From a virus, in IMG/VR virus record IMGVR_UViG_3300024999_000410, positions 1 to 23,324 of that record: 23,324 nucleotides of DNA. One strand, given 5' to 3'. The notes under the pieces were generated by a model that did not search any database, was not told the origin of the DNA, and was given only the letters and a program-made list of their open reading frames with translations. Position numbers and translations under genes: made by a program. Positions 438-16,218 of this stretch are shown here, piece after piece; within the stretch, counting starts at the first letter, position 1, and each line of letters opens with the position of its first letter.

Positions 438-1822
438 TGATAGACCCTTTTAAATATGAAATTGAAATGAGAGCTGCTAGGGTTGGAAGAAAAAGAACGT
501 CATTGCCATGGCTTTATCCATGGCAATATGGTAGAGAGTTATACCCAGAAGATGATTTTAATGCGATGGTGAATTCTTATAAATCTTGGGTGTATATTGC
601 AAGTTCTAAAAATGCTGATAGTGTAGCAAATATTCCTCTTAGACTTTATGTGGCAAAAAATAAGAAAGGTCAAAAAATAAAAAATTTCCCTACGAGAAAT
701 ATTTCAAAATCTCAAGATGCTTTTATTAGGGAAAATCCATTTTTATCAAATATAACTTCTGTTAGAAAAGCCAGTGAGTTTGAAGAAGTTCTTGATCACC
801 CATTTCTTGATTTGAAAAAAAATGTAAATAATTTCATGAATAATTTTGATCTGATGCAAATGACACAATTGTATCAGGAACTTACTGGAAATACGTTCTG
901 GCATATTCTTGAAGACCGAATGGGGATTCCAAAAGAAATTTGGATTATTCCACCACAAAATTGTAAGGTTGTTCCCGATAGTAAAAGTTTTATTTCTGGC
1001 TATCAATATCAAAAAGGAACTCAGTCTATAGATTTAAAAGAAAAGGCTGTAATTCATTTTAAAATGCCAAATCCAAAATCTGTTTATTATGGGTTTCCTC
1101 CTTTTTCTTCTATTACTGAAGAATATTCATTAAATCATTCTATTAATGAATATGAAGAAGCAATGTTTAAAAACCAAGGAACATTGTCTGGAACATTTGA
1201 AACAGATAGCGAGCTCGGAGACCATGAATTTGAAAGGTTAAAAGCAGAAATTAAACAAGCATTTACTGGTCCTAAAAATGCGGGGAAAATGCCATTACTT
1301 GATAGTGGCTTAAAATTTAAACCAGTTGGAACCTCACCTAAAGAGATGTCTTATCTTGGCGGTAGAGAAAAGATAAGAGAATTAATTTTAAACGCTTTTG
1401 GACAAGCACTTGGTATGTATAGCAAAGAAGCGAATAGAGCGAATGTAGATGCTGCTATATATCAATACATGAGCTTTACAATCCAGCCGAGATTGAGAAG
1501 GATTGAAGAAAAGCTAAATGAAAAATTGATTTGGCGATATGATGAAAAATTGTTTCTAGCATATGATAATTGCGTTCCTGACTCAAGAGAAGAATTGTTA
1601 AGTGAGAGAATTAAACATGTTCAAACATCAATTCTTTCGGTTGATGAGGCTAGGGGTTCTTTAGGTAAAGAACCACTAGGGGGTATTTTTAATAAACCTT
1701 TTATCCCTGTGAATATGACTACTCCTGAGAATATATTAACAAATATTGGGGATGGAAATGGGTCCGGGAATATTGTTAACGATTCTAAAAAAATGATGGA
1801 GTTGCTGGGAAATAAAATATAG
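437..1822 (+). CDS. Portal protein, HK97-like
   Basis: This 461-aa protein has the usual length for HK97-type portals. The portal dodecamer forms the vertex through which DNA is packaged and to which the neck attaches. Visible family features are the N-terminal YKSWVYIASSKNADSVANIPLRLY segment with its clip and wing context (residues about 49-71), a YQELTGNTFWHI segment, a VYYGFPPFSSI loop followed by a long helix ending in EEAMFKNQG, and the C-terminal QPRLRRIEEKLNEKL helix with a following SVDEARGSLG motif. ATG 437 overlaps the previous stop. The TAG stop (1820-1822) lies inside the left arm of a strong inverted repeat. Confidence 0.93.
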   Translation: MIDPFKYEIEMRAARVGRKRTSLPWLYPWQYGRELYPEDDFNAMVNSYKSWVYIASSKNADSVANIPLRLYVAKNKKGQKIKNFPTRNISKSQDAFIRENPFLSNITSVRKASEFEEVLDHPFLDLKKNVNNFMNNFDLMQMTQLYQELTGNTFWHILEDRMGIPKEIWIIPPQNCKVVPDSKSFISGYQYQKGTQSIDLKEKAVIHFKMPNPKSVYYGFPPFSSITEEYSLNHSINEYEEAMFKNQGTLSGTFETDSELGDHEFERLKAEIKQAFTGPKNAGKMPLLDSGLKFKPVGTSPKEMSYLGGREKIRELILNAFGQALGMYSKEANRANVDAAIYQYMSFTIQPRLRRIEEKLNEKLIWRYDEKLFLAYDNCVPDSREELLSERIKHVQTSILSVDEARGSLGKEPLGGIFNKPFIPVNMTTPENILTNIGDGNGSGNIVNDSKKMMELLGNKI

Positions 1823-1876
1823 TGTGACTAGGCTGATCACCGAAAGCAAAGAATCCTTACTTTGTTGTCACACTAT
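1819..1876 (+). ncRNA. Structured three-way-junction RNA element, copy 1 (putative)
   Basis: A 10-bp perfect outer stem (1819-1828 with 1867-1876, core AGTGTGAC/GTCACACT) encloses two smaller hairpins. After the stem come TA (1829-1830), then GG...CC (1831-1832 with 1840-1841, loop CTGATCA), then GAA, then a 7-bp hairpin AGCAAAG/CTTTGTT (1845-1851 with 1860-1866, one G-U pair) whose loop AATCCTTA holds AATCC. The outer stem includes the portal TAG, and a short T run follows. Copies at 14132-14201 and 15404-15464 share the architecture and junction bases but not the stem sequences. It could act as a terminator, an mRNA 3' end or processing element, or a protein-binding site. The fold was drawn by hand. 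Confidence 0.6.
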
Positions 1877-1909
1877 TTTAAAAGGATCTATGCTAAAAGG
1901 AGGTATAGG

Positions 1910-2038
1910 GTGGACAAAATTAAAATTTGTTGCGTTTGTAAAAAAGAAAAATTTATCAATTCCTTTAGCAAGGATAAAAATAAAAAAGATGGGTTTGGAT
2001 TAAAATGTAAAGAATGCCACAAACACGAAGGTTGCTAG
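1910..2038 (+). CDS. Small zinc-ribbon protein, 42 aa
   Basis: This 42-aa ORF starts at GTG 1910 behind a strong Shine-Dalgarno (AAAGGAGGT, ending at 1903) and stops at TAG 2036-2038. It carries CxxC (CCVCKKEKF) and a second CxxC/H set (CKECHKH) separated by a basic FxKDKNKKDGFG stretch. This layout is typical of a small zinc finger seen alone or at the N-terminus of phage HNH endonucleases. It probably binds zinc and nucleic acid. It could be a stand-alone regulator or the remnant of a longer endonuclease; no nuclease residues follow it. It sits between the structured element and a secreted-protein gene. Confidence 0.6.
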   Translation: MDKIKICCVCKKEKFINSFSKDKNKKDGFGLKCKECHKHEGC

Positions 2039-2509: not shown

Positions 2510-2854
2510 ATGAATTTTTTGGCTGATAATAACATGAATCTTGACGGCGAATGGGCAGTTGAGTGCTTAGGCTGGGCGGCAATCTTCAACCCGCTAAATG
2601 ACCACAAAGTCATCCGGGACGGCCAAGGCTTCAACCGGGCCGTGGGGATTGAGGGGGCGTATTTCAAAATAATTAAGAATCCATTCGGCAAAGACGACAA
2701 TGAATATTTGCTGGATTACAATGTGGAATGGAACGATAAATTTTTCCATAACATTACCGATCTTGTGCAGGTCCAGCCGGACGGCACAGCAAAAGGTGTG
2801 CTTTATAAGGCGGGTAGGCCAAAGTTTGAATTCACGCTGACGAGGGTGAAATGA
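2510..2854 (+). CDS. Unknown small protein at the left edge of the GC-rich cassette
   Basis: This ORF of 114 codons runs from ATG 2510 (or ATG 2534, residue 9) to TGA 2852-2854. Neither start has a convincing ribosome binding site. The first 8 codons are AT-rich like the phage, while from about 2534 the codon use switches to GC-rich, so the present start may be a hybrid created at a junction. The TAA of the preceding gene is in the same frame, just one codon upstream of ATG 2510. Visible features are LDGEWAVECLGW near the start and a beta-strand-rich remainder. I do not recognise the family; a lipocalin-like fold is only a guess. Confidence 0.5.
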   Translation: MNFLADNNMNLDGEWAVECLGWAAIFNPLNDHKVIRDGQGFNRAVGIEGAYFKIIKNPFGKDDNEYLLDYNVEWNDKFFHNITDLVQVQPDGTAKGVLYKAGRPKFEFTLTRVK

Positions 2855-4482
2855 AAAATAAACTCCTCACTGTCGCGGCTCTGCTGCTTCTGCCTTCTGT
2901 GGCAATGGCAAAGGGCGTCTATATTGCCGGGGCAACTCAAGGCGATGATTCAGGCACAAGTTGTGCTACGGCCCATGACGAGACTTGGTTTTCCACACAA
3001 GGCAATTGGGGTGTTGATGCCGCCGATATGACCCCAGGAGATACCATTTACTTTTGCGATGATGCCGGGCCAATTGATGGGCAGCTTATCGTTAGGGCTA
3101 CCGGTACGTCAGATGCATGGTATTACTTCGCGCCAGCTTTCGGGGATGCGCCGGTTTTGTCTTACTCCGCAACGCAAGGCCTTCTTTTCGGAGTAGCCGG
3201 CAGGGGATATTATCAAATTGACGGTCTCGACACCCTAACATTTTCCGGTGGTGCTGCGCTCGGGAGAATGGTGTATTTCTTCGGGCAGCATGATGTAGAA
3301 GTAAAAAATATCATTTGTGATTCCGACACTTCCCAGACATGCCTTGATATCTACACGTCAACCGCTGATTCCTACAACATAAATTTTCACCACAATGATT
3401 TTCGCAGCAATGGGACAATGGAAGGGATCAGGATGGCGCAGGCGGGAGCAAATGCGAAACACCCGTATAATATCTCCATTACCGATAACATTGGCGACTA
3501 CCTCAAAAATTTCATATTCGGCACCGCTGACGCAGATGTCTGGAGTGGGGGGCACAGGGTAGAAGGGCTGACAGTTGCCAGGAATGATGTTGACCACACA
3601 CGCGGCCCATTTATGGGGTTGCCTGGCGGAATTGACGGCAGCACATTGGCGTCTTCCATTGATCATAACCATGTCGGACAGTGCGGTGACTCAGACTATC
3701 CGGCGGTAAATTGTCTCCAACTCCACTGGATCAATGATGTTGATATTCTCTCGAATCGTATTGACTCTGTTGATACCGCGAGCTGCGACGGTTGCGGTAT
3801 CATTTTGGATTGGGCGAATTTGGATGACACATTGCTGTCTACTAATAACCACGTTTCGTTGAATATTATCAAAAACACCAACGCTGCTTGCGGTGGCAGA
3901 GGGATATGTATTTTTAAAGGCACAGGGAACCTGATAGATTATAACCTCGTAAATGGCTCAAGCGGCATGGGGTTAAGGAACGCCAGTAACGAGAGCAGCG
4001 GAAACAGATGGATTGGCAACACTGTTATGAGTCCAGATGTATGTTTTTCACAAGCCGATGGCGACAACATAGGAAATACCACTACGTGGATTCTTAACCT
4101 CTGCTCCAGCCCTACAAGTAAAGGTTTTGAAACGCTTAACAATTCTGTCGCAATTGAGCATGACAACCTTGTTTACAACGCACCGGACAACGACATAGTG
4201 CTCGACGCCACCGACTTAACCGTTGACCCACTGCTCGACACTCAAGGTCGCCCACGCCTCAAATCGATCTTTGACGCCGGAACAGCTCATGACAATGTCT
4301 ATTGCGGGTCTGGTGAGCCAATAGGAGCCTACGAGTTGTGCAAAGGCGTGTCAATGCCGCCGCCACTGTGGTTTCTTGGGACGCCGGATAGCTATGAGTT
4401 GGGTGGTGGACTGGTGCATGTTGAGCTGGTAACTTTCGACGGTGAATCAGTAACTTTCGGCGGTGAAGCCGTTACATGGTGA
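2851..4482 (+). CDS. Secreted right-handed beta-helix protein
   Basis: This 543-aa protein starts at ATG 2851, overlapping the previous stop (ATGA), with GAGGG upstream. It has a classical signal peptide, cut after AMA at about residue 20. The mature start, GVYIAGATQGDDSGTSCATAHDETW, is the typical opening of parallel beta-helix proteins, followed by many N-rich rungs of the type HHNDFRSNG, NHVSLNIIKN and NTVMS. Such folds occur in polysaccharide lyases, depolymerases and tailspikes. The C-terminus ends with a short repeated VTF-GE-VTF-GE pattern. No catalytic residues can be assigned by eye. Since it is exported, it may act on extracellular polysaccharide instead of being a conventional virion tailspike. 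Confidence 0.75.
   Translation: MKNKLLTVAALLLLPSVAMAKGVYIAGATQGDDSGTSCATAHDETWFSTQGNWGVDAADMTPGDTIYFCDDAGPIDGQLIVRATGTSDAWYYFAPAFGDAPVLSYSATQGLLFGVAGRGYYQIDGLDTLTFSGGAALGRMVYFFGQHDVEVKNIICDSDTSQTCLDIYTSTADSYNINFHHNDFRSNGTMEGIRMAQAGANAKHPYNISITDNIGDYLKNFIFGTADADVWSGGHRVEGLTVARNDVDHTRGPFMGLPGGIDGSTLASSIDHNHVGQCGDSDYPAVNCLQLHWINDVDILSNRIDSVDTASCDGCGIILDWANLDDTLLSTNNHVSLNIIKNTNAACGGRGICIFKGTGNLIDYNLVNGSSGMGLRNASNESSGNRWIGNTVMSPDVCFSQADGDNIGNTTTWILNLCSSPTSKGFETLNNSVAIEHDNLVYNAPDNDIVLDATDLTVDPLLDTQGRPRLKSIFDAGTAHDNVYCGSGEPIGAYELCKGVSMPPPLWFLGTPDSYELGGGLVHVELVTFDGESVTFGGEAVTW
4429..4470 (+). repeat. 21-base imperfect tandem repeat at the 3' end of the beta-helix gene
   Basis: Two adjacent 21-base units (4429-4449 and 4450-4470) begin GTAACTTTCG and encode VTFDGES and VTFGGEA, followed by a degenerate third start encoding VTW. 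The repeat makes a short beta-strand-like C-terminal tag. It may arise from slippage and might serve as an attachment or oligomerisation tail. Confidence 0.7.
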
Positions 4483-4491
4483 GGAGATGAA

Positions 4492-5832
4492 ATGAAAAGA
4501 CTTTTTTTGATAGCAGCACTGGTTTTAATCCCCTGGCAAGCATTGGCGGTTGAGCTGGACGCCGACAGCAACGGCTATCAGGACCTTGACAAAGGCGGAA
4601 CGAATGCAGCGACTGAGCAAGATCCAACCGTGGACACCTCGGCAGAGATCCAGGCCATTATCGGGGCGGGGGTGTATGAACCATCCCTGGATAATCCAGC
4701 CACAACTGGATTTGTCCTTAGCTCAACAGATGCCGGGGTCAGGTCATGGGTTGCTGTTCCAACTGCGGCCAGCCTTGCGGTTGATGACCTGATCACCCTC
4801 TCAGGCGTGGCGGAAGGTGCTGCAAACCTTGGGGCGTTCACCGGGTCCACGATTGCGGATAACCAAACTGTCAAAGCAGCTATCCAGGCATTGGAGACAT
4901 TCGCCGAAACCCTGGGAGGTGGTGTGGACTTTACCGCCTACGACGGCGTGATATGGGGCACTGCCGCAGGAGGTTCGCAGGTTCACACATTTGATACCGG
5001 TGCCGGGACAGACCCGGCATTCACGGTCAGTGATACGGATTTTACTTTCAACAAGCCTTTGGTGGCTTCTGGATTCACTTCTAACGCAGCAGACGGTGAG
5101 CACTACTATGAAGCCATTAATACCACAGCAATTACCGCTACCGCCACAGCTGGGAGAGTTTCCTACTATAACGGGTTCCACTATATTGCCGATGGCACAG
5201 ACTGGAATGATTATCTGTTGAACAAGGAAATGATTGACACTCTTTCCGAGTTCGAAACCGTGCTTTTCGTTATCAATACCATTCGTGACATCGACGCAAC
5301 GGGAGCAGTAACTTTCACCGGCCAGTCAGCAACCAGGGCGAAGACCCTTTCCGACGCCGCTGATACCATCGTTGAAAAATCTGGATCTTACACTGACGCT
5401 ACCGGAACATACCGGACAAGCGGCATCGTAAGCGGCAGGCTTGGAGAAGTCATCAAAACAGCTTCAGCAACCTTGACCGCTTATGAAACCAACGGAACAG
5501 TGATCTCCAACTACGGAGAGACTGACGACGCCGATCTTATCCTGACTGGAAATGATGTTGACACCTTTCCAGGCCACAGTTTTGTCTATAATATCGTTGC
5601 CGCGATGGCTACAAACGACACCTGTTTCAAAGCTGCTGCTGACAATTTCCTGAACTTTGAGGGAACAAGCGGGACTGATAATGGGTGTATCTGTAATGCT
5701 GCCCCAGCACTTGGGGATAAGCTGACTTGTTATGCGCTGACAACTGGTGCCGGTGCTACTGATTGGTTCTGCGAGGGGACACGAGGGACATGGGTCGCTG
5801 TCGCTGATAATACTGGCGATTGCCCAGATTGA
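4492..5832 (+). CDS. Secreted fibre-like protein
   Basis: This 446-aa protein starts at ATG 4492 with GAGGAGA upstream, 9 bases after the beta-helix gene. A signal peptide (MKRLFLIAALVLIPWQALA) is followed by DADSNGYQD, which looks like a calcium-binding DxDxNG loop, and then KGGTNA, a phrase common in phage tail-fibre proteins. The central part has a TVKAAIQALETFAETLG helix and repetitive Thr/Ala/Gly/Asp-rich segments like fibre shafts. The C-terminus holds several Cys (NDTCFKA, NGCICNA, WFCEGTRG), unusual for a cytoplasmic phage fibre and consistent with an oxidising exterior. Function is not established; surface adhesion or an exported fibre is plausible. Confidence 0.6.
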   Translation: MKRLFLIAALVLIPWQALAVELDADSNGYQDLDKGGTNAATEQDPTVDTSAEIQAIIGAGVYEPSLDNPATTGFVLSSTDAGVRSWVAVPTAASLAVDDLITLSGVAEGAANLGAFTGSTIADNQTVKAAIQALETFAETLGGGVDFTAYDGVIWGTAAGGSQVHTFDTGAGTDPAFTVSDTDFTFNKPLVASGFTSNAADGEHYYEAINTTAITATATAGRVSYYNGFHYIADGTDWNDYLLNKEMIDTLSEFETVLFVINTIRDIDATGAVTFTGQSATRAKTLSDAADTIVEKSGSYTDATGTYRTSGIVSGRLGEVIKTASATLTAYETNGTVISNYGETDDADLILTGNDVDTFPGHSFVYNIVAAMATNDTCFKAAADNFLNFEGTSGTDNGCICNAAPALGDKLTCYALTTGAGATDWFCEGTRGTWVAVADNTGDCPD

Positions 5833-5840
5833 GGCCAAAC

Positions 5841-6626
5841 ATGAAAAGATTATTTTTTACTCTATTCTTTATATTTCTTGCGGCTGTCTGCTATGCTAAC
5901 CCATTTATGGCCACGGTTGTGCAGCAACAGACCTGTGTCGCCACCGAAACCCCAGAGACATCATGCGCTGACAGTATTGATAATGACTGTGACGGTTTGG
6001 TTGACGGGGCTGATAGTGATTGCGGCACACCGGTTGAAATAACTTTTCAAGATGGTGTTGATAGTTATGCTGGCACGATAGATACATATATCGTCCAAGA
6101 CGCTACAACGACAAACTACGGGACATCAGCCACTTCACATTCGCGTGCAGCTAACGGTGGTGGTTATATAAGAAACATTTTGATAAGTTTTGACTTATCA
6201 AGTATAACCGGGCCAGTTACGGTTACAAATGCCACGCTCTCGATTTTGAGAGGTGGTACACACGATGGTGATACAACATGTAGTGCGTATAGACTATTGC
6301 GCAACTGGGTAGAAACAGAGGCAACATGGAATGTGTATTCTACAGGAAACTCATGGTCAACAGCAGGAGCTGCATATAATAATGCGGACAGGGATGTTGA
6401 CCTGAGTGCCGCTGTCATACTAGACACAATCGGTGACTTGGAGTGGAAAGATTTTTCATCGGCACAATTAGCTGCCGACGTTCAGGATATGATCAATAAT
6501 GGCAGCAACTATGGCTGGGTTCTTTTTCTGAATACCAGCCCAGTCGCATGGCATGTGTTTGTTTCTAGTGAGGATGTCACAACTACAAATAGGCCGAAAT
6601 TAACAATAACTTATACGGTGGACTGA
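5841..6626 (+). CDS. Secreted protein with MopE-type metal-binding motif and DNRLRE/CBM-like domain
   Basis: I choose ATG 5841, which begins MKRLFFTLFFIFLAAVCYA, a good signal peptide with GAGG upstream; an earlier in-frame ATG at 5820 would overlap the previous gene and bury the signal. The 261-aa protein then shows CADSIDNDCDGLVDGADSDC (mature residues about 25-50), the Cys/Asp-rich motif of MopE-like and other extracellular metal-binding proteins. From about residue 55 it matches the DNRLRE domain pattern: DTYIVQDATTTNYG, a central LISFDLSSI strand, NWVETEATWN, and a terminal RPKLTITYT. That family is a beta-sandwich carbohydrate-binding module in secreted proteins. It likely binds surface glycans. 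The MopE motif is commonest in deltaproteobacterial proteins. Confidence 0.75.
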   Translation: MKRLFFTLFFIFLAAVCYANPFMATVVQQQTCVATETPETSCADSIDNDCDGLVDGADSDCGTPVEITFQDGVDSYAGTIDTYIVQDATTTNYGTSATSHSRAANGGGYIRNILISFDLSSITGPVTVTNATLSILRGGTHDGDTTCSAYRLLRNWVETEATWNVYSTGNSWSTAGAAYNNADRDVDLSAAVILDTIGDLEWKDFSSAQLAADVQDMINNGSNYGWVLFLNTSPVAWHVFVSSEDVTTTNRPKLTITYTVD

Positions 6627-8215
6627 TGCGAACTCTTTGGATATTTTTGCTTTTATTTTTGTCAGCTGCTGACCAAGGGTATACCGCAACCTATTATATG
6701 GCTCCTGGTGGAAGTGATAGCGGAACTGGGGCGACCGATAACGAGTGGTTGACACTAAGATACGCGGTAAGTCAAATGTCACAAAGCGATGTTCTTATCA
6801 TCCGCGATGGAACATATTCAGGGCCTAATAATGTGTTGTCCCAAACACAACTTCCACCGTCAGGTTTAGCGGGTGCATTTACCACAATTCGTGCCGAACA
6901 TGACGGACTAGCAATTTTCCAAGATGGTTTTATACAGATGGATGGTAATCCTGCTGCTCCGTATGCATATATCTCATTTGAGGGGATTAAGGCTCTTGAT
7001 TATACTATGACATATGGTGTTAATCTAAGTTATTTTAAATTTTCACGTTGTGCTTTTACCTATGACGAAACAACTCCACCATCAGCCGGGGCATCGTTTT
7101 GGATAGGGGCAGGATGCTCTTATTTTTTAGTAGAGGATTGTTGGGCGTGGGGGGCAGGAAGATATAGATTTATAGCTGGGGGCCATCATCATGTTTTTAG
7201 GCGTTGTGTGGCAAGATATGACAGAACAGACTGGACTGATCCAATGGCTAATTTCACCTCTTACGATAGTGATTATGTTGCTTTCCAGAATTGCATTGCG
7301 ATAGATAGCGATCATGAAGAGTTTTGGCTAAATACTTCTGAAGTAGCAGGGACTTTTTATATTCATCACGGTTCTGAATACAATACTGTTAAAGGATGCA
7401 TCAGCGTCAACAACCATAATCCATGGCTTACCGGTTCGCCCGGTCTTGGATTAGCAATAGAAAATAACCTGGCTATTGATATTGCTAATATTGGTGAGCA
7501 AACAAGAGCAGACACCTATAGTACAGGCGCATTCTCAATAGAGAATTGCACACTTATTAATATAACTGGGGACGGGTTGCATCCCTGGGGTGGAAGTGCT
7601 GATAGTGTAACAGTAGTAAATAACGTACTGTATGGGATAGGGGGGGTAGCACTTTACGGCGCAGATCTCGCGGATGGAACATATAATTGCTTATATAATA
7701 ATACTACTGATTATTATATCACAGCATCAGACATAAACGACTACTGCGCGGCACAATCAAATGCTATTGACCCGGCAGATGGAAATCCTGGAAATGGTAT
7801 ACCTGCAATACTTTACCCTGTTCGAGTGGAAAGTGGATCAAATTTAGATGGTACTGGTTATGCTGGGGCAGGTCGCGGGGCGACAATTTTGTATCGTTTA
7901 GGAGTGGCCGGTACCTTCTATGGCGAAGCTGGATGGGACACGGAAACTGAAGATTCCTTGTGGCCATGGCCGAACGAAGGAAGAATAAAGGCAGATATGG
8001 CTGACTATTTGTACACTGGAGAAATAGTGGGAGGTGGAACGGATACCCTATCCGGCGCAAGGGGTTTTGCCGCCGTCGGCAAGCAATTAAATGGGGTTGA
8101 TGATATAACCTTAACCTCTTATATTTGGGAGTATCTAGGTAATCAGATTCCTCCTGAAATTTATGGGTATAGTCACGGCGGCGGGCATTTCAGCGGTATG
8201 GGTAATTTTAGATAG
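6626..8215 (+). CDS. Secreted right-handed beta-helix protein (second)
   Basis: This 529-aa protein starts at ATG 6626, overlapping the previous TGA (TGATG). The signal peptide is cut at about residue 21 (GYTA). The mature N-terminus, TYYMAPGGSDSGTGATDNEWLTLRYAVSQM, followed by DVLIIRDGTYSG, is the hallmark opening of parallel beta-helix proteins. Rungs follow with FSRCAF, VEDCWAW, FRRCVARYD, FQNCIAID and IENNLAID. Carbohydrate-active or surface adhesin roles are usual for the fold. It resembles the beta-helix protein at 2851-4482 in architecture but is less GC-rich, so the two may have separate origins. No catalytic residues can be assigned. Confidence 0.75.
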   Translation: MRTLWIFLLLFLSAADQGYTATYYMAPGGSDSGTGATDNEWLTLRYAVSQMSQSDVLIIRDGTYSGPNNVLSQTQLPPSGLAGAFTTIRAEHDGLAIFQDGFIQMDGNPAAPYAYISFEGIKALDYTMTYGVNLSYFKFSRCAFTYDETTPPSAGASFWIGAGCSYFLVEDCWAWGAGRYRFIAGGHHHVFRRCVARYDRTDWTDPMANFTSYDSDYVAFQNCIAIDSDHEEFWLNTSEVAGTFYIHHGSEYNTVKGCISVNNHNPWLTGSPGLGLAIENNLAIDIANIGEQTRADTYSTGAFSIENCTLINITGDGLHPWGGSADSVTVVNNVLYGIGGVALYGADLADGTYNCLYNNTTDYYITASDINDYCAAQSNAIDPADGNPGNGIPAILYPVRVESGSNLDGTGYAGAGRGATILYRLGVAGTFYGEAGWDTETEDSLWPWPNEGRIKADMADYLYTGEIVGGGTDTLSGARGFAAVGKQLNGVDDITLTSYIWEYLGNQIPPEIYGYSHGGGHFSGMGNFR

Positions 8216-8224
8216 GAGATCAAT

Positions 8225-8458
8225 ATGACATCATCAATCGCGTTCGCTTTTTTATGTCTTATCATTGGGTCGTGCTATGTGGCGGCGGTATCTTTTCTCA
8301 CTGTTCCGCCGGAAAATAAAGACATCGTGAATATCATCATAGGCTTTATCAACGGCACGATGCTCGGGACTAGCATCACCTATGTGATCGGGACAAGTTC
8401 ATCATCGGCCAAAAAGGATGAGGTAAAAAAGGAACAGGAAGATGACCATAAAAATTGA
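8225..8458 (+). CDS. Holin-like small membrane protein
   Basis: This 77-aa protein has ATG 8225 with GGAGAT upstream. Two transmembrane segments are visible: residues about 4-27 (IAFAFLCLIIGSCYVAAVSF) and about 35-58 (VNIIIGFINGTMLGTSITYVIG), separated by a PPENKD turn. A charged, Lys/Glu-rich tail follows. Size, two membrane helices and the GFxNGTxLG segment fit small phage holins or holin-like proteins that permeabilise the inner membrane at lysis. No endolysin or spanin gene is adjacent, so the lysis role is inferred. It ends the co-directional cassette and overlaps the next short ORF by 17 bases. Confidence 0.6.
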   Translation: MTSSIAFAFLCLIIGSCYVAAVSFLTVPPENKDIVNIIIGFINGTMLGTSITYVIGTSSSSAKKDEVKKEQEDDHKN

Positions 8459-8540
8459 AGCCGAATCTTGCCAGCACTGCATGAATTGCCGTGTTGCCCT
8501 GGCGGACGATACCTTGCCCGTTTCCGATAATATATTTTAA
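8442..8540 (+). CDS. 32-aa Cys-containing ORF at the right edge of the cassette
   Basis: This short ORF begins at ATG 8442 inside the holin-like gene, with GGAACAGGA upstream, and ends at TAA 8538-8540. The peptide includes CQHCMNC, a CxxCxxC cluster, followed by an Ala/Asp-rich stretch. The last codons switch from GC-rich to AT-rich at about 8526, so this may be the 5' remnant of a longer gene cut off at the cassette boundary. It could also be a genuine small metal-binding peptide. I cannot tell which. Confidence 0.4.
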   Translation: MTIKIEAESCQHCMNCRVALADDTLPVSDNIF

Positions 8541-9339: not shown

Positions 9340-9541
9340 TCTTGTTCGTGCAGTACAAAACAATAAAAATCAGCTAATCCCAGAGAATTATGAATTTTGC
9401 CCAAGATATAATCATGATAGTGTAAAATTGAAATGTATAGCAAATAAAGAATGTAAATGTATGGGGATTGACGATAGTTCTGTAATAAAAAAAATTGGCG
9501 ATAATAAATTTCTTATCCAATGTAATTATTGGTGTGATTGA
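9332..9541 (+). CDS. Cys-rich small protein, unknown
   Basis: This 69-aa protein begins at ATG 9332, overlapping the phosphoesterase stop. AAAAAAGGA upstream can serve as the ribosome binding site. It contains six Cys in the order C-x18-C, ANKECKCMG, and a C-terminal QCNYWCD, suggesting one or two metal sites. It is not recognised. Because it is coupled to the phosphoesterase, it may be a partner protein, but this is only positional inference. Confidence 0.55.
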   Translation: MINLVRAVQNNKNQLIPENYEFCPRYNHDSVKLKCIANKECKCMGIDDSSVIKKIGDNKFLIQCNYWCD

Positions 9542-10210
9542 ATGATTAAAGTTTGTGAGTACTGTAAAGGAGAATTTCAAACTAATTCAAAAAGGAAGAA
9601 ATATTGTTGTACGGTTTGTAAAAATAAATATTCGATAAATAAAAATAGTATTTGTAAAATATGTGAATAAAATGAATCGGCATATAAAACATTGTTTTGT
9701 GAGAATTGCAAAAAAGAGTATAAGGTTTTTGGGGTTAAAGAGTGGAAAATTTGGGCAAATAGAAAGGAAAGAAGATATTGTAGCATAAAATGTTCTAATG
9801 AGGCCAGAATTGGTAAATATGTAGGAGAGGAGAGTGTTAATTGGAAAGGCGGCTTAACTTTTCTCCAAAATTTGATAAGGAAGTCGTCAGAATATTTAGA
9901 TATTAGGAAGAAATGTTTTAGTAGAGATAAAAATACTTCTATTTTATCAAAAAGAAAAGGTAAATTGCATCATCACCATATAAAATCATATTCTACTATT
10001 ATTAAAGAAAATTGCATAACAAAAGAAAATTGGAGATTGTTCAAACACATTTTGTTCGATATTAATAATGTTGTGACGTTAATTGAGAAAGAACATATTC
10101 ATTTTCATAATTTATACGGGAAGGTCACAACACCAGAACAATTTGAAGAATTTAAAAATAATTATTCAGGAGGACAAAATGGATTTAATAACTCAGCAAT
10201 TTTCTCTTAA
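9542..10210 (+). pseudogene. HNH endonuclease with N-terminal zinc ribbons, interrupted by in-frame TAA
   Basis: Reading frame 9542-10210 is open except for TAA at 9668-9670. The first 42 codons (CEYCKGEF, then KKYCCTVCKNKY, then CKIC) are a typical zinc-ribbon start of phage HNH proteins. After the stop the same frame continues with FCENCKKEYKVF and RYCSIKCSNEAR, then WKGG and an HNH core (LHHHHIKSY, a NVVTL strand, HIHFHNLYG). The downstream part could only start at TTG 9692, which has no ribosome binding site. I read this as one homing endonuclease gene inactivated by a nonsense mutation. Its last 32 bases overlap the protease start. Alternatives are readthrough, two separate proteins, or a sequencing error. 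Confidence 0.7.
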
Positions 10211-12843: not shown

Positions 12844-14124
12844 ATGGCTGAAGAAACTAAAAGTAAGATGACTATTGATGAACTTAATGAAGTTATCAGC
12901 AAGGGTGCTGCTTCCGTAGTTGAAGGCGCTGTTCTTAAGTTTAAAGAATCGCTTGCTCTTGAAATTGATGCAAAAATTAAAGCCGCAGTAGAGCCGATTG
13001 AAAAACGTATTGTGGTTGGTCAGAGTGAAGCAGAAAAAGATAAGAAGGCTGGGTTTAAAACACTTGCCCACTTTGCAACTGATGTTGCTAAAGCTGCTCA
13101 GTCTGGATATCGTAAACTCTCTCCAGAACTTTCTAAATGGGAAGATAATTGTGCAACCATTAAAGCTGCTGGTTCTCCTTCTCAGAATGTTGGTGACGGC
13201 GAAGCCGGTGGTTATCTGGTTCCTGAAGAATTTCGGCAAAACCTTCTTGTTGCGGCTAAAGAACAGAATGAGTTGATGGGTCGGTGTACTCAAATTCCTA
13301 TGCAGTCAAATTCTGTAAAAATTCCTTATGTCAATGGTTTCGATAAATCTGGGAACTTGGTATATGGTAACGTTGCTTGGCAATGGACTGAAGAGGAAGG
13401 GTCTCTTACTGAAAAGAATATCAAGTTTGGTTATATTAATCTAAATCTTCATAAAGTAACAGCTCTTGCCTATGCTAGTGATGAAATTCTTCGCTTTTCT
13501 CCTATGAGTATGGAGAATATATTGCGTGAAGGGTTTACTGATGGTTTTAATTATGAAATGAACAGGGTTATCCTTAAAGGTACTGGCGCTGGCCAGCCAC
13601 AGGGGTTACTCTCTGCCCCTTGTCTTGTCTCTATCACTGCTGAGACTGGTCAACCAGCTACGACCATTGTTTGGGAAAATGTTATTAAAATGTATGCGCG
13701 TTGCATTAATCCATCTAATGCTGTTTGGATTGCCAACCCCAATACTCTTCCTCAGCTTGCAAGCATGTCTCTAACTGTAGGCACCGCTGGTGTCCCTGTA
13801 TTTATGCCAGCGGGTGGGGCTAGTGGGAAACCGTATAATACGTTGTTTGGGCTCCCTGTTGTTTTTAGCCACCATGCAAAAGCTTTAGGCACTGCTGGCG
13901 ATTTGATTCTTGCTGACATGAAACAGTATCTACTCGGTATGCTTAGTGGTGATGGTGGTATTGGTTTTGACACTTCTATGCACCTAAAATTCGACGTTGA
14001 TCAGATGGCATATCGGTGGCGCTTTTACGTTGCTGGTCAAAGCTGGATGCCGCAGGCATTGGTGCCTCCAGAGGCCAGTTCTGACACAATTTCTCCGTTT
14101 ATTGTAATTACTTCAAGAAGTTAA
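12844..14124 (+). CDS. Major capsid protein, HK97 fold
   Basis: This 426-aa protein starts at ATG 12844, with GGAGG 8 to 12 bases upstream. Residues 1 to about 105 are charged, helical and Lys/Glu/Ala-rich, as expected of the delta (scaffolding) domain removed by the prohead protease. The mature domain opens with GDGEAGGYLVPEEF (117-130), a hallmark of phage HK97-type capsids, and shows GTGAGQPQGLLSAP later. Cleavage probably falls between residues 100 and 118; this is inferred from the family. Codon use is richer in G+C than the neighbours, in keeping with very high expression. It ends in TAA, 7 bases before structured element copy 2. The 73 bases upstream are AT-rich with no other gene seen. 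Confidence 0.96.
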   Translation: MAEETKSKMTIDELNEVISKGAASVVEGAVLKFKESLALEIDAKIKAAVEPIEKRIVVGQSEAEKDKKAGFKTLAHFATDVAKAAQSGYRKLSPELSKWEDNCATIKAAGSPSQNVGDGEAGGYLVPEEFRQNLLVAAKEQNELMGRCTQIPMQSNSVKIPYVNGFDKSGNLVYGNVAWQWTEEEGSLTEKNIKFGYINLNLHKVTALAYASDEILRFSPMSMENILREGFTDGFNYEMNRVILKGTGAGQPQGLLSAPCLVSITAETGQPATTIVWENVIKMYARCINPSNAVWIANPNTLPQLASMSLTVGTAGVPVFMPAGGASGKPYNTLFGLPVVFSHHAKALGTAGDLILADMKQYLLGMLSGDGGIGFDTSMHLKFDVDQMAYRWRFYVAGQSWMPQALVPPEASSDTISPFIVITSRS

Positions 14125-14131
14125 TAATATT

Positions 14132-14201
14132 AGTGTGGATAGGCTTTGGTTTTAAACTAAAGTTGATAAGCTAAGAAATCTCCCGTCTTAGCTTCCACAT
14201 T
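14132..14201 (+). ncRNA. Structured three-way-junction RNA element, copy 2 (putative)
   Basis: The outer stem pairs AGTGTGGA (14132-14139) with TCCACATT (14194-14201), including one G-U pair. Junction TA (14140-14141) leads to a long second hairpin starting GG (14142-14164, core CTTTGGTT/AACTAAAG). GATA follows. The third hairpin is AGCTAAG/CTTAGCT (14169-14175 with 14187-14193), loop AAATCTCCCGT. Junction bases TA and GG, the GA-rich linker and an AATC-containing third loop match copies 1 and 3, while stems differ. It follows the capsid gene stop by 7 bases and is followed by TTTATTAAT. Terminator, processing or protein-binding roles are possible. Confidence 0.6.
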
Positions 14202-14255
14202 TTATTAATATCGTAGGGGGTATAATTTTATAATATAAATATGGAGGTATAAATT

Positions 14256-14741
14256 ATGGGTGGAAGACTTTTTCAGAATGTTCATGTTGTAAACGCCATG
14301 CCTAGTGCTAGTCAAGCAGCTTATGAGGATTTGTTTAATGGTAGTCCTAATACGGATATTGTTAATCTTGGCAAATACGAACAGTGTCTTTGGGTAATTC
14401 AAAAAGCGGCTGGTTCTACTGGTGTTGCACGTATCAGTGTTGAAAGTTGTGATGATGTTACGCCTTCAACTGCGACAACTGTAGCATTTAATTATTGGAC
14501 TTGTACTAGTGGTGATACTTGGTCTGATATGCAGACAGCTACTGCGTATGGGTTCACAACTACTGCTGGTAGCGACCAAATTTATGCGATTGAGATCGAT
14601 AGTTCTAGACTTTCTGGTACTGATAAATATGCAAGGCTCGCCACTGATGAAACTACTGATGACCCAGTAGATGGGACAATTGTATGTATTCTTGGTGGTG
14701 GTAAGATTATCCAAGAAGTAAAACCAACAGCCATTGTTTAA
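14256..14741 (+). CDS. Putative capsid decoration or minor virion protein
   Basis: This 161-aa protein starts at ATG 14256 with GGAGG at 14243-14247. It has no signal peptide. The sequence alternates small polar and hydrophobic residues (YEQCLWVIQKAAG, ARISVESCDDVTP, FNYWTCTSGDTWSD, IYAIEIDSSRL), consistent with an all-beta protein. Similar beta-rich proteins encoded just after the capsid gene are often decoration or stabilising proteins on the outer shell. Phage context and a strong ribosome binding site suggest high expression. No specific family is recognised, so the role is inferred from position. Confidence 0.55.
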   Translation: MGGRLFQNVHVVNAMPSASQAAYEDLFNGSPNTDIVNLGKYEQCLWVIQKAAGSTGVARISVESCDDVTPSTATTVAFNYWTCTSGDTWSDMQTATAYGFTTTAGSDQIYAIEIDSSRLSGTDKYARLATDETTDDPVDGTIVCILGGGKIIQEVKPTAIV

Positions 14742-14754
14742 TTTATTGATTTAA

Positions 14755-14786
14755 ACAAAGCTTGAGATATTTCACTCAAGCTTTGT
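14755..14786 (+). terminator. Strong 12-bp hairpin, possible terminator or mRNA-stabilising stem
   Basis: A perfect 12-bp inverted repeat (ACAAAGCTTGAG at 14755-14766 with its complement at 14775-14786) encloses the 8-base loop ATATTTCA. It lies between a stop (14741) and a start (14805). It is followed only by CTTT, so it is a weak intrinsic terminator at best and could instead protect upstream mRNA ends. It lacks the junction architecture of the three-way elements. Confidence 0.6.
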
Positions 14787-14804
14787 CTTTAAAGCAGGGA
14801 GAAA

Positions 14805-15403: not shown

Positions 15404-15464
15404 TATATTGAGGGATAGGGAGCGCACCCGACAAGAGATTTAATCCACCTCTTCTCTCAATATA
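15404..15464 (+). ncRNA. Structured three-way-junction RNA element, copy 3 (putative)
   Basis: The outer stem is 11 bp (TATATTGAGGG, 15404-15414, with 15454-15464; one G-U pair). Junction ATA or TA leads to GGG-AGCGCA-CCC (15418-15429), then GAC(A), then AAGAG/CTCTT (15433-15437 with 15449-15453) with an 11-base loop ATTTAATCCAC carrying AATCC. The same order of parts occurs in copies 1 and 2 with unrelated stem sequences. No T run follows, arguing against a plain intrinsic terminator. It lies between a virion gene and an HNH-AP2 endonuclease gene. Confidence 0.6.
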
Positions 15465-15489
15465 TTATGGATTGTATAGGAGGAATACT

Positions 15490-16218
15490 ATGAGTAATAA
15501 TGTAAAAGAATATGTTTTGGGATGCGTTTATGGAAGATGGGTTGTAATTTATGCTGATTTGCCATATAGTCAGAGGCAAGGTAGGCTAGTCGTTGTAAAA
15601 TGTTTATGTGATAAAGAGACAATTAAATTAGTTAATTTACAAGTTTTGAGGAGTGGGAAATCACAATCTTGCGGCTGTCTTAAAATAGAGAAATTAGTAG
15701 AGAGATCCACAATTCATGGGATGGGTGGAAGAAAATCAAGGAATAAAATTTATTCACTTTGGAAACATATCAATAGTAGATGTTCAAATGTGAATAATGG
15801 ATCGTATGACAGTTATGGTGGGCGTGGAATTTATGTATGTAGTGAATGGGTGTTTGAATTCCCCGTGTTTAATGATTGGTGTTTAAATAATGGATGGGAA
15901 GAAGGTCTTCAATTAGATCGAATCGATAATGATGGTCCTTATGCTCCTTGGAATTGTAGATTTATAACTATAAGAGAGAATGGATTTAATAAAAGATTAT
16001 TACAGTCGAATAACACTTCTGGATATTGTGGGGTGTCTTATAAACCGGAGAGAAAATCTTTTTCTGCAATTGTAAGAAATGATGGGAAGACAGTATTTAA
16101 CAAAACAACATTTAAAACTGCTAAAGATGCAGCATTAGCAAGAGATAAATTTATTATAAGAGAAGGATTGCCTCATAAATTAAACTTCCCGGAACTAGCA
16201 ATTAGCTGGTGTTTGTAA
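15490..16218 (+). CDS. HNH homing endonuclease with AP2 DNA-binding domain
   Basis: I choose ATG 15490 (AGGAGG at 15478-15483). The 242-aa protein has an N-terminal zinc-ribbon set (Cys38/40 with CGC at 61-63), a central nuclease region with GGRGIYVC and LDRIDNDG (142-149) followed by NCRFIT, and a C-terminal AP2/ERF-like domain at about 177-233 (GYCGVSYKPERKSFSAIV, then FKTAKDAALARDKF). This is the usual architecture of phage homing endonucleases, which cut a target site and spread by copying. It sits between virion genes as a free-standing element. Its TAA overlaps the next ATG. Confidence 0.88.
   Translation: MSNNVKEYVLGCVYGRWVVIYADLPYSQRQGRLVVVKCLCDKETIKLVNLQVLRSGKSQSCGCLKIEKLVERSTIHGMGGRKSRNKIYSLWKHINSRCSNVNNGSYDSYGGRGIYVCSEWVFEFPVFNDWCLNNGWEEGLQLDRIDNDGPYAPWNCRFITIRENGFNKRLLQSNNTSGYCGVSYKPERKSFSAIVRNDGKTVFNKTTFKTAKDAALARDKFIIREGLPHKLNFPELAISWCL

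Follow-up and report, generated by a model that had tools for sequence, protein, structure and literature searches.

Three short structured elements occur on one virus fragment from IMG/VR (23,324 bases, hereafter the window), where they follow the portal gene (437–1822), the gene for the major capsid protein (MCP; 12844–14124), and a small ORF of the virion gene cluster. Their position raises the question of whether they serve the genes that they follow or those that they precede, and by which means. A sequence-only reading of the window had taken them for copies of one new RNA motif and had related them to the virion genes upstream.

Fold and family of the three elements

The hand-drawn fold of that reading was borne out for all three elements on the plus strand, each consisting of an outer stem P1, the joining bases UA, a hairpin P2, the joining bases GA(N)A, and a hairpin P3, with minimum free energy z-scores of -3.2, -4.4, and -2.4 against dinucleotide shuffles. 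Copy 1 (1819–1876) is composed of P1 (1819–1828/1867–1876), UA as J1/2 (1829–1830), P2 (1831–1841) with UGAUCA in its loop, GAA as J2/3 (1842–1844), and P3 (1845–1866) with the loop AAUCCUUA. In copy 2 (14132–14201), P1 (14132–14139/14194–14201) encloses a long P2 (14142–14164) with UUUAAA, the junction GAUA (14165–14168), and P3 (14169–14193). Copy 3 (15404–15464) comprises P1 (15404–15415/15453–15464), UA (15416–15417), P2 (15418–15429) with GCGC in its loop, GACA (15430–15433), and P3 (15434–15452) with the loop AAUCC. Only in one detail was the fold itself corrected, namely that P2 of copy 2 ends in UU and not in CC.

Scanning Rfam with permissive filters identified copy 1 as int-alpA (RF02996; 38.5 bits at a cut-off of 35.8, covering all 71 positions), which a gathering scan with the default filter had missed, while targeted scans of copies 2 and 3 revealed no int-alpA match even at an E value of 10. 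Copies 2 and 3 represent a sister type (type A), which is filed apart from int-alpA (type B) and was not found in Rfam. Thus, the supposed novelty of the motif is lost for copy 1, an Rfam match having been named by the sequence-only reading itself as evidence to the contrary, and is retained for copies 2 and 3. Altogether, int-alpA is a known Rfam family without an assigned function, while the family at large and the role proposed for it appear to be new; among 5.39 million open-access papers, int-alpA was mentioned in one, outside its title and abstract, and we found no description of such an element together with homing endonucleases.

Viral contigs were searched with two anchor patterns, which gave 67 and at least 120 stretches, and filtering and clustering led to at least 94 distinct members among the matches listed. 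Type A is described by GGA-UA-GG..CC-GAYA-AGU (copies 2 and 3) and the int-alpA-like type B by C-UA-GG..CC-GAAAA (copy 1); the conservation of these anchors is built in by the search design, that of other positions is not. The junction bases UA and GAYA or GAAAA are unpaired and nearly invariant across unrelated phages. Several type-B phage members scored 37.8–45.7 bits against int-alpA, and most of the type-A loci scanned gave no match, with two exceptions; the negatives of a quick genome search with RF02996 were disregarded, as it missed even the window. Further copies in related phages were found as well, since phages with portal or capsid proteins of 58–79% identity carried the same motif after the portal or MCP gene, mostly with a zinc-finger or HNH-type ORF within about 40 nt of it. 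A BLASTn search of phages with the type-A consensus resulted mostly in fragments, some of them with different junctions (L254, L256). No match to the family models was detected in phages T4, Aeh1, 25 (models R1 and R2 in these three), and P1, phage P4 yielded weak matches only (15.9 bits, E 0.003; 10.7 bits, E 0.08), and all matches in phage SPO1 were above an E value of 0.5. Several type-B elements with a very short P2 (8–11 nt) were noticed at a group of loci (L155, L168, L225, L124, L148, and L187) in which type B precedes ORFs of about 950 aa, including DUF927 or primase-like families, and which possibly form a separate sub-family.

A covariance model from which the window and its relatives had been held out recovered copy 3 (40.2 bits, E 6.5e-9) and copy 2 (24.4 bits, E 2.8e-4), so that the shared fold exceeds chance. 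Stem covariation amounted to 0.565 compared to 0.169 after shuffling for 37 type-A sequences and to 0.692 compared to 0.156 for 36 type-B sequences, in register in both types. Because these sets had been pre-filtered for pairing, the unfiltered pair counts are the cleaner figure: the first pair of P1 outside the search anchors was Watson-Crick in 39/46 members of type A and 85/88 of type B, and pairs 2–4 of the type-B P3 were so in 84, 80, and 80 of 88. Covariation and the held-out model together uphold the view that the copies share one three-way-junction RNA, in which the stems changed in a compensatory manner and the junction bases were kept. Its action as RNA is argued from position and orientation, because G-U and A-C counts in P1 (50 and 48, with a register slip in the type-A P3) do not separate the strands.

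The P3 loop and its two target sites

Downstream of P1 lie two sites, typically 11–16 nt apart, to which the loop of P3 is complementary. The sequence-only reading had drawn the boundary of the element at P1 and had listed AATC as a shared feature of the loop; this loop proved to be variable in the family and to co-vary with the downstream sites, and site 1, a hairpin P4, and the downstream start codon also belong to the element. Comparison of each loop with its own tail revealed a longest complement of 5.22 nt on average at site 1, compared to 2.94 +/- 0.13 nt when tails were swapped between members (z 17.4), and of 4.65 nt compared to 3.42 nt at site 2 (z 10.7), and no excess of loop complementarity was detected in the next 22 nt downstream of the sites (z -0.6). 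The effect was present in each type taken alone, with z-scores for duplex energy of -15.6 and -8.1 and of -14.8 and -10.5. Site 2 overlapped the best Shine-Dalgarno hexamer in 59 of 66 cases and mostly ended 4–12 nt before the start codon, which in most members is located 37–45 nt after P1. The Shine-Dalgarno region sits in the loop of P4, whose stem scored 5.09 compared to 3.74 after shuffling and 4.09 in control windows. Among 78 members with a suitable start codon, one site was weak (above -5 kcal/mol) in 19 and both were weak in 5.

In copy 1, site 1 (AAGGAU, 1882–1887, plus strand) is the complement of AUCCUU in the P3 loop, and P4 (UCUAUGCU[AAAAGGA]GGUAUAGG, 1887–1909, plus strand) holds in its loop site 2 (AAGGA) and part of the Shine-Dalgarno sequence AGGAGG. 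The alignment of this copy also showed that AAGG, the conserved 3' tail of int-alpA, is able to pair with CCUU of the P3 loop, and int-alpA loci of E. coli have this loop and both of its sites as well, followed by an ORF of about 300 aa. Copy 2 has retained a remnant target (GGGGG, 14216–14220, plus strand), which is complementary, with G-U pairs, to CUCCC of its P3 loop. In copy 3, site 1 (UGGAUU, 15468–15473, plus strand) is the complement of AAUCCA in the P3 loop, and P4 (UAUAG[GAGGAAUA]CUAUG, 15475–15492, plus strand) encloses the Shine-Dalgarno sequence and the AUG.

These data also bear on the idea of a stable trans-acting sRNA with targets elsewhere, placed before these genes by chance or for the sake of expression. 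The Rfam type of int-alpA, 'Gene; sRNA', would agree with it; the permutation test, however, disfavours it, as the loop co-varies with the tail in cis, and so does the fixed spacing of the start codon, so that we consider such an sRNA very improbable.

Downstream genes and mobile cassettes

The elements are leaders of the next gene and not 3' elements of the virion genes. Out of 20 type-A members sampled from contigs other than those of close relatives (not blind, as the ORF starts were already visible), 17 had a downstream ORF matching endonuclease PHROGs, namely HNH, GIY-YIG, endonuclease VII-like, or intron-type; the ORFs after these genes were mainly virion genes, and the families listed for them included no endonuclease. 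Downstream ORFs of type B, i.e., HNH, DUF927 primase-like, DUF1376 primosomal, Rha, KilA-N, P22_AR, and Dam, are broader than endonucleases, and homing is therefore not the sole context. In named phages, the element was identified before a Seg-like homing endonuclease gene (RHph_X2_25), before the gene for a Rha regulator (Ab105-2phi), and before small ORFs inserted in head operons.

The window itself displays three stages of cassette decay. Copy 3 precedes an intact gene for an HNH homing-type endonuclease (15490–16218, plus strand; phrog_374, E 8e-53), copy 1 a remnant of 42 aa with a GTG start and an endonuclease VII-like zinc finger (1910–2038, plus strand), and the ORF of copy 2 is lost here and present in relatives L006 and L024. 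Full-length relatives of the copy 1 ORF with 315 and 330 aa follow the same element behind the portal gene in L024 and L008/L027. The element could thus serve as a simple predictor of sites of mobile endonuclease cassettes, even after decay of the gene as in copies 1 and 2. Another HNH-type gene, apparently broken into two frames, was noticed at 9541–10210, with no element copy nearby.

The location behind virion genes had led the sequence-only reading to 3' end formation or mRNA stabilisation for the upstream gene, or a coat-protein site. Portal, MCP, and small virion-cluster ORF do precede the three copies, with their stop codons close by. However, no intrinsic terminator (a G+C-rich hairpin followed by a T run, i.e., a U tract in the RNA) was predicted at any of the three copies, in other members the element comes after int or other genes, and covariation is with the downstream start region; the constant partner is a downstream start codon with its Shine-Dalgarno sequence, mostly of an endonuclease gene. 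We therefore give this explanation next to no weight: the location as such stands, since cassettes insert between virion genes, and its value as a functional clue does not. As a separate observation, a long hairpin (ACAAAGCTTGAG..CTCAAGCTTTGT, 14747–14790) follows the ORF at 14256–14741 and is a possible terminator without a long T run.

Cassette 1 is missing from an otherwise conserved site in relative L023. Compared to this phage, the segment 1634–2036 of the window, comprising the 3' end of the portal gene, element 1, and its ORF, is replaced: residues 1–398 of the portal protein are 99% identical and residues 399–461 only 43%, revealing a mosaic breakpoint in the portal gene, both element 1 and its ORF are absent from L023, and an identity of about 95% resumes from 2040. 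This pattern fits co-conversion of the sequence around a cassette that was inserted, but other kinds of recombination would produce it as well.

Since the cassettes are mobile, the P2 loops rich in palindromes, and G-U pairs no commoner than A-C mismatches, a DNA element of the cassette (a cruciform, a protein-binding site, or a homing site) was considered instead of an RNA. Against it, the element has a fixed orientation upstream of the gene, the loop co-varies with a site at the Shine-Dalgarno sequence, P4 lies at the start codon, and the layout is that of C4, a proven antisense RNA (see below), which makes a DNA element highly unlikely.

Some further arrangements were noted. In L052 (326–2415), the ORF downstream of a type-A element resembles TnpA, the IS607-type recombinase, and a RAGATH-18 RNA (69.5 bits) lies beyond it, so that the leader may also serve a transposon. 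L088 contains a group I intron (57 bits; 2097–2406), with an int-alpA-scoring element and the endonuclease gene belonging to it about 1.6 kb away. In the window, the block 2510–8500 has a G+C content of 0.41–0.53 compared to about 0.28–0.37 in most of the rest, encodes secreted, beta-helix-like proteins as judged by eye, and looks recently acquired.

Similarity to C4 and proposed control of translation

The closest known layout is that of C4 of phages P1 and P7. As in C4, the three-way junction is located just upstream of the controlled gene, the P3 loop is antisense to a site at the Shine-Dalgarno sequence (b' in C4), a second target lies right after P1, and mobile or phage accessory genes are found downstream. 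In C4, the second target pairs with the joining strand between P3 and P1 (a'), whereas in the window elements both sites pair with the P3 loop; J3/1 measures 0–3 nt in all members, which is the search maximum, and was directly seen for the three window copies. Furthermore, P2 of the P1 C4 ends in a UUCG tetraloop, which the window elements do not have. The C4 model RF01695 resulted in no match on the window (E 5), at the three sites (E 10), or at type-B elements, while the C4 of phage P1 as a control scored 68.8 bits; membership in C4 was rejected on this ground and for want of an a' stretch, in spite of the similar layout. The Rfam model of int-alpA stops near site 1 and includes neither site 2, P4, nor a stated function. 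In the record of phage P1, the C4 targets a2/b2 are annotated upstream of icd-ant. RNase P trims C4 to a length of about 77 nt; its b' stretch covers ribosome-binding sites in part, and a' accounts for specificity (PMC5320573).

Based on these comparisons, the element is likely a C4-like translational repressor leader on mobile endonuclease cassettes, and the family probably blocks translation of downstream homing endonucleases and other add-on genes. The junction of P1, P2, and P3 would display the P3 loop, antisense to two copies of one short sequence. Pairing of this loop with site 2 would, together with P4, hide the ribosome-binding site and switch the gene off, while pairing with site 1 would be an alternative or a specificity contact, in whichever order the two pairings may form. 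Points against this model are the members with weak sites, the broken HNH gene that has no element nearby, the breadth of the genes downstream of type B, and the conservation of the junction bases (see below). Translational repression is plausible here because RNA hairpins hide the ribosome-binding sites of T4-like homing endonucleases (I-TevI, segB, and Aeh1 mobE; PMC2988022). As in the proposed leader, the Shine-Dalgarno sequence of a phage homing endonuclease is hidden by RNA structure in these cases; those are, however, simple hairpins with a promoter-choice switch, lacking a three-way junction or an antisense loop. HEARO, the IscB omega RNA, likewise adjoins a phage or mobile HNH gene; it is a guide RNA of different fold and size, and was dropped as a candidate since no Rfam match to HEARO was found here.

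Strict conservation of the junction bases could point to the binding of a ligand or protein. In a riboswitch-like sensor, the junction would bind a small molecule or protein, and the P3 loop would toggle between site 1 (on) and site 2 with the Shine-Dalgarno sequence (off), in line with nearly invariant unpaired bases across unrelated phages and with one loop having two mutually exclusive partners. Yet no metabolic theme is common to the genes downstream (HNH, GIY-YIG, primase, Rha, KilA-N, Dam, IS607-like), and the C4 leader has conserved junctions with no known ligand, so that a sensor seems unlikely. The conserved core of unpaired bases and the cutting of the C4 precursor by RNase P (PMC5320573, citing Hartmann 1995) would also suit a self-cleaving or processing element that separates the mRNA of the cassette from that of the virion genes, with no antisense control involved; this would leave the two co-varying target sites unexplained, and we hold it to be extremely improbable.

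With a leader of the C4-like kind, int-alpA gains a proposed function that can be tested, a sister family is added to it, and both are tied to the way C4 works. It also suggests that one RNA device, controlling expression, is common to homing endonucleases of unrelated enzyme families, whose spread is therefore traceable by covariance model. The junction may, like C4, be excised and also target another copy of the same cassette in trans, which would confer cassette-specific 'immunity'. Extended to phages at large, each homing-endonuclease cassette would encode a C4-like antisense RNA of its own, which would be released in trans, possibly dimerised with itself through the palindromic P2 loop, and silence further copies of the same cassette; we regard this as a doubtful, though conceivable, extension, by which selfish genes would use RNA to curb the cost that they impose and to keep out rivals, a loop of 5–8 nt setting the specificity.

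Regarding P2, the palindromes in the apical loop measure 4–6 nt and are different in each window copy. A self-complementary 4-mer was detected in the P2 loop of 44 of 65 distinct sequences, some of which share descent, compared to 16–24 expected and unlike P3 loops; kissing dimers through the P2 loops would be one reading of this excess.
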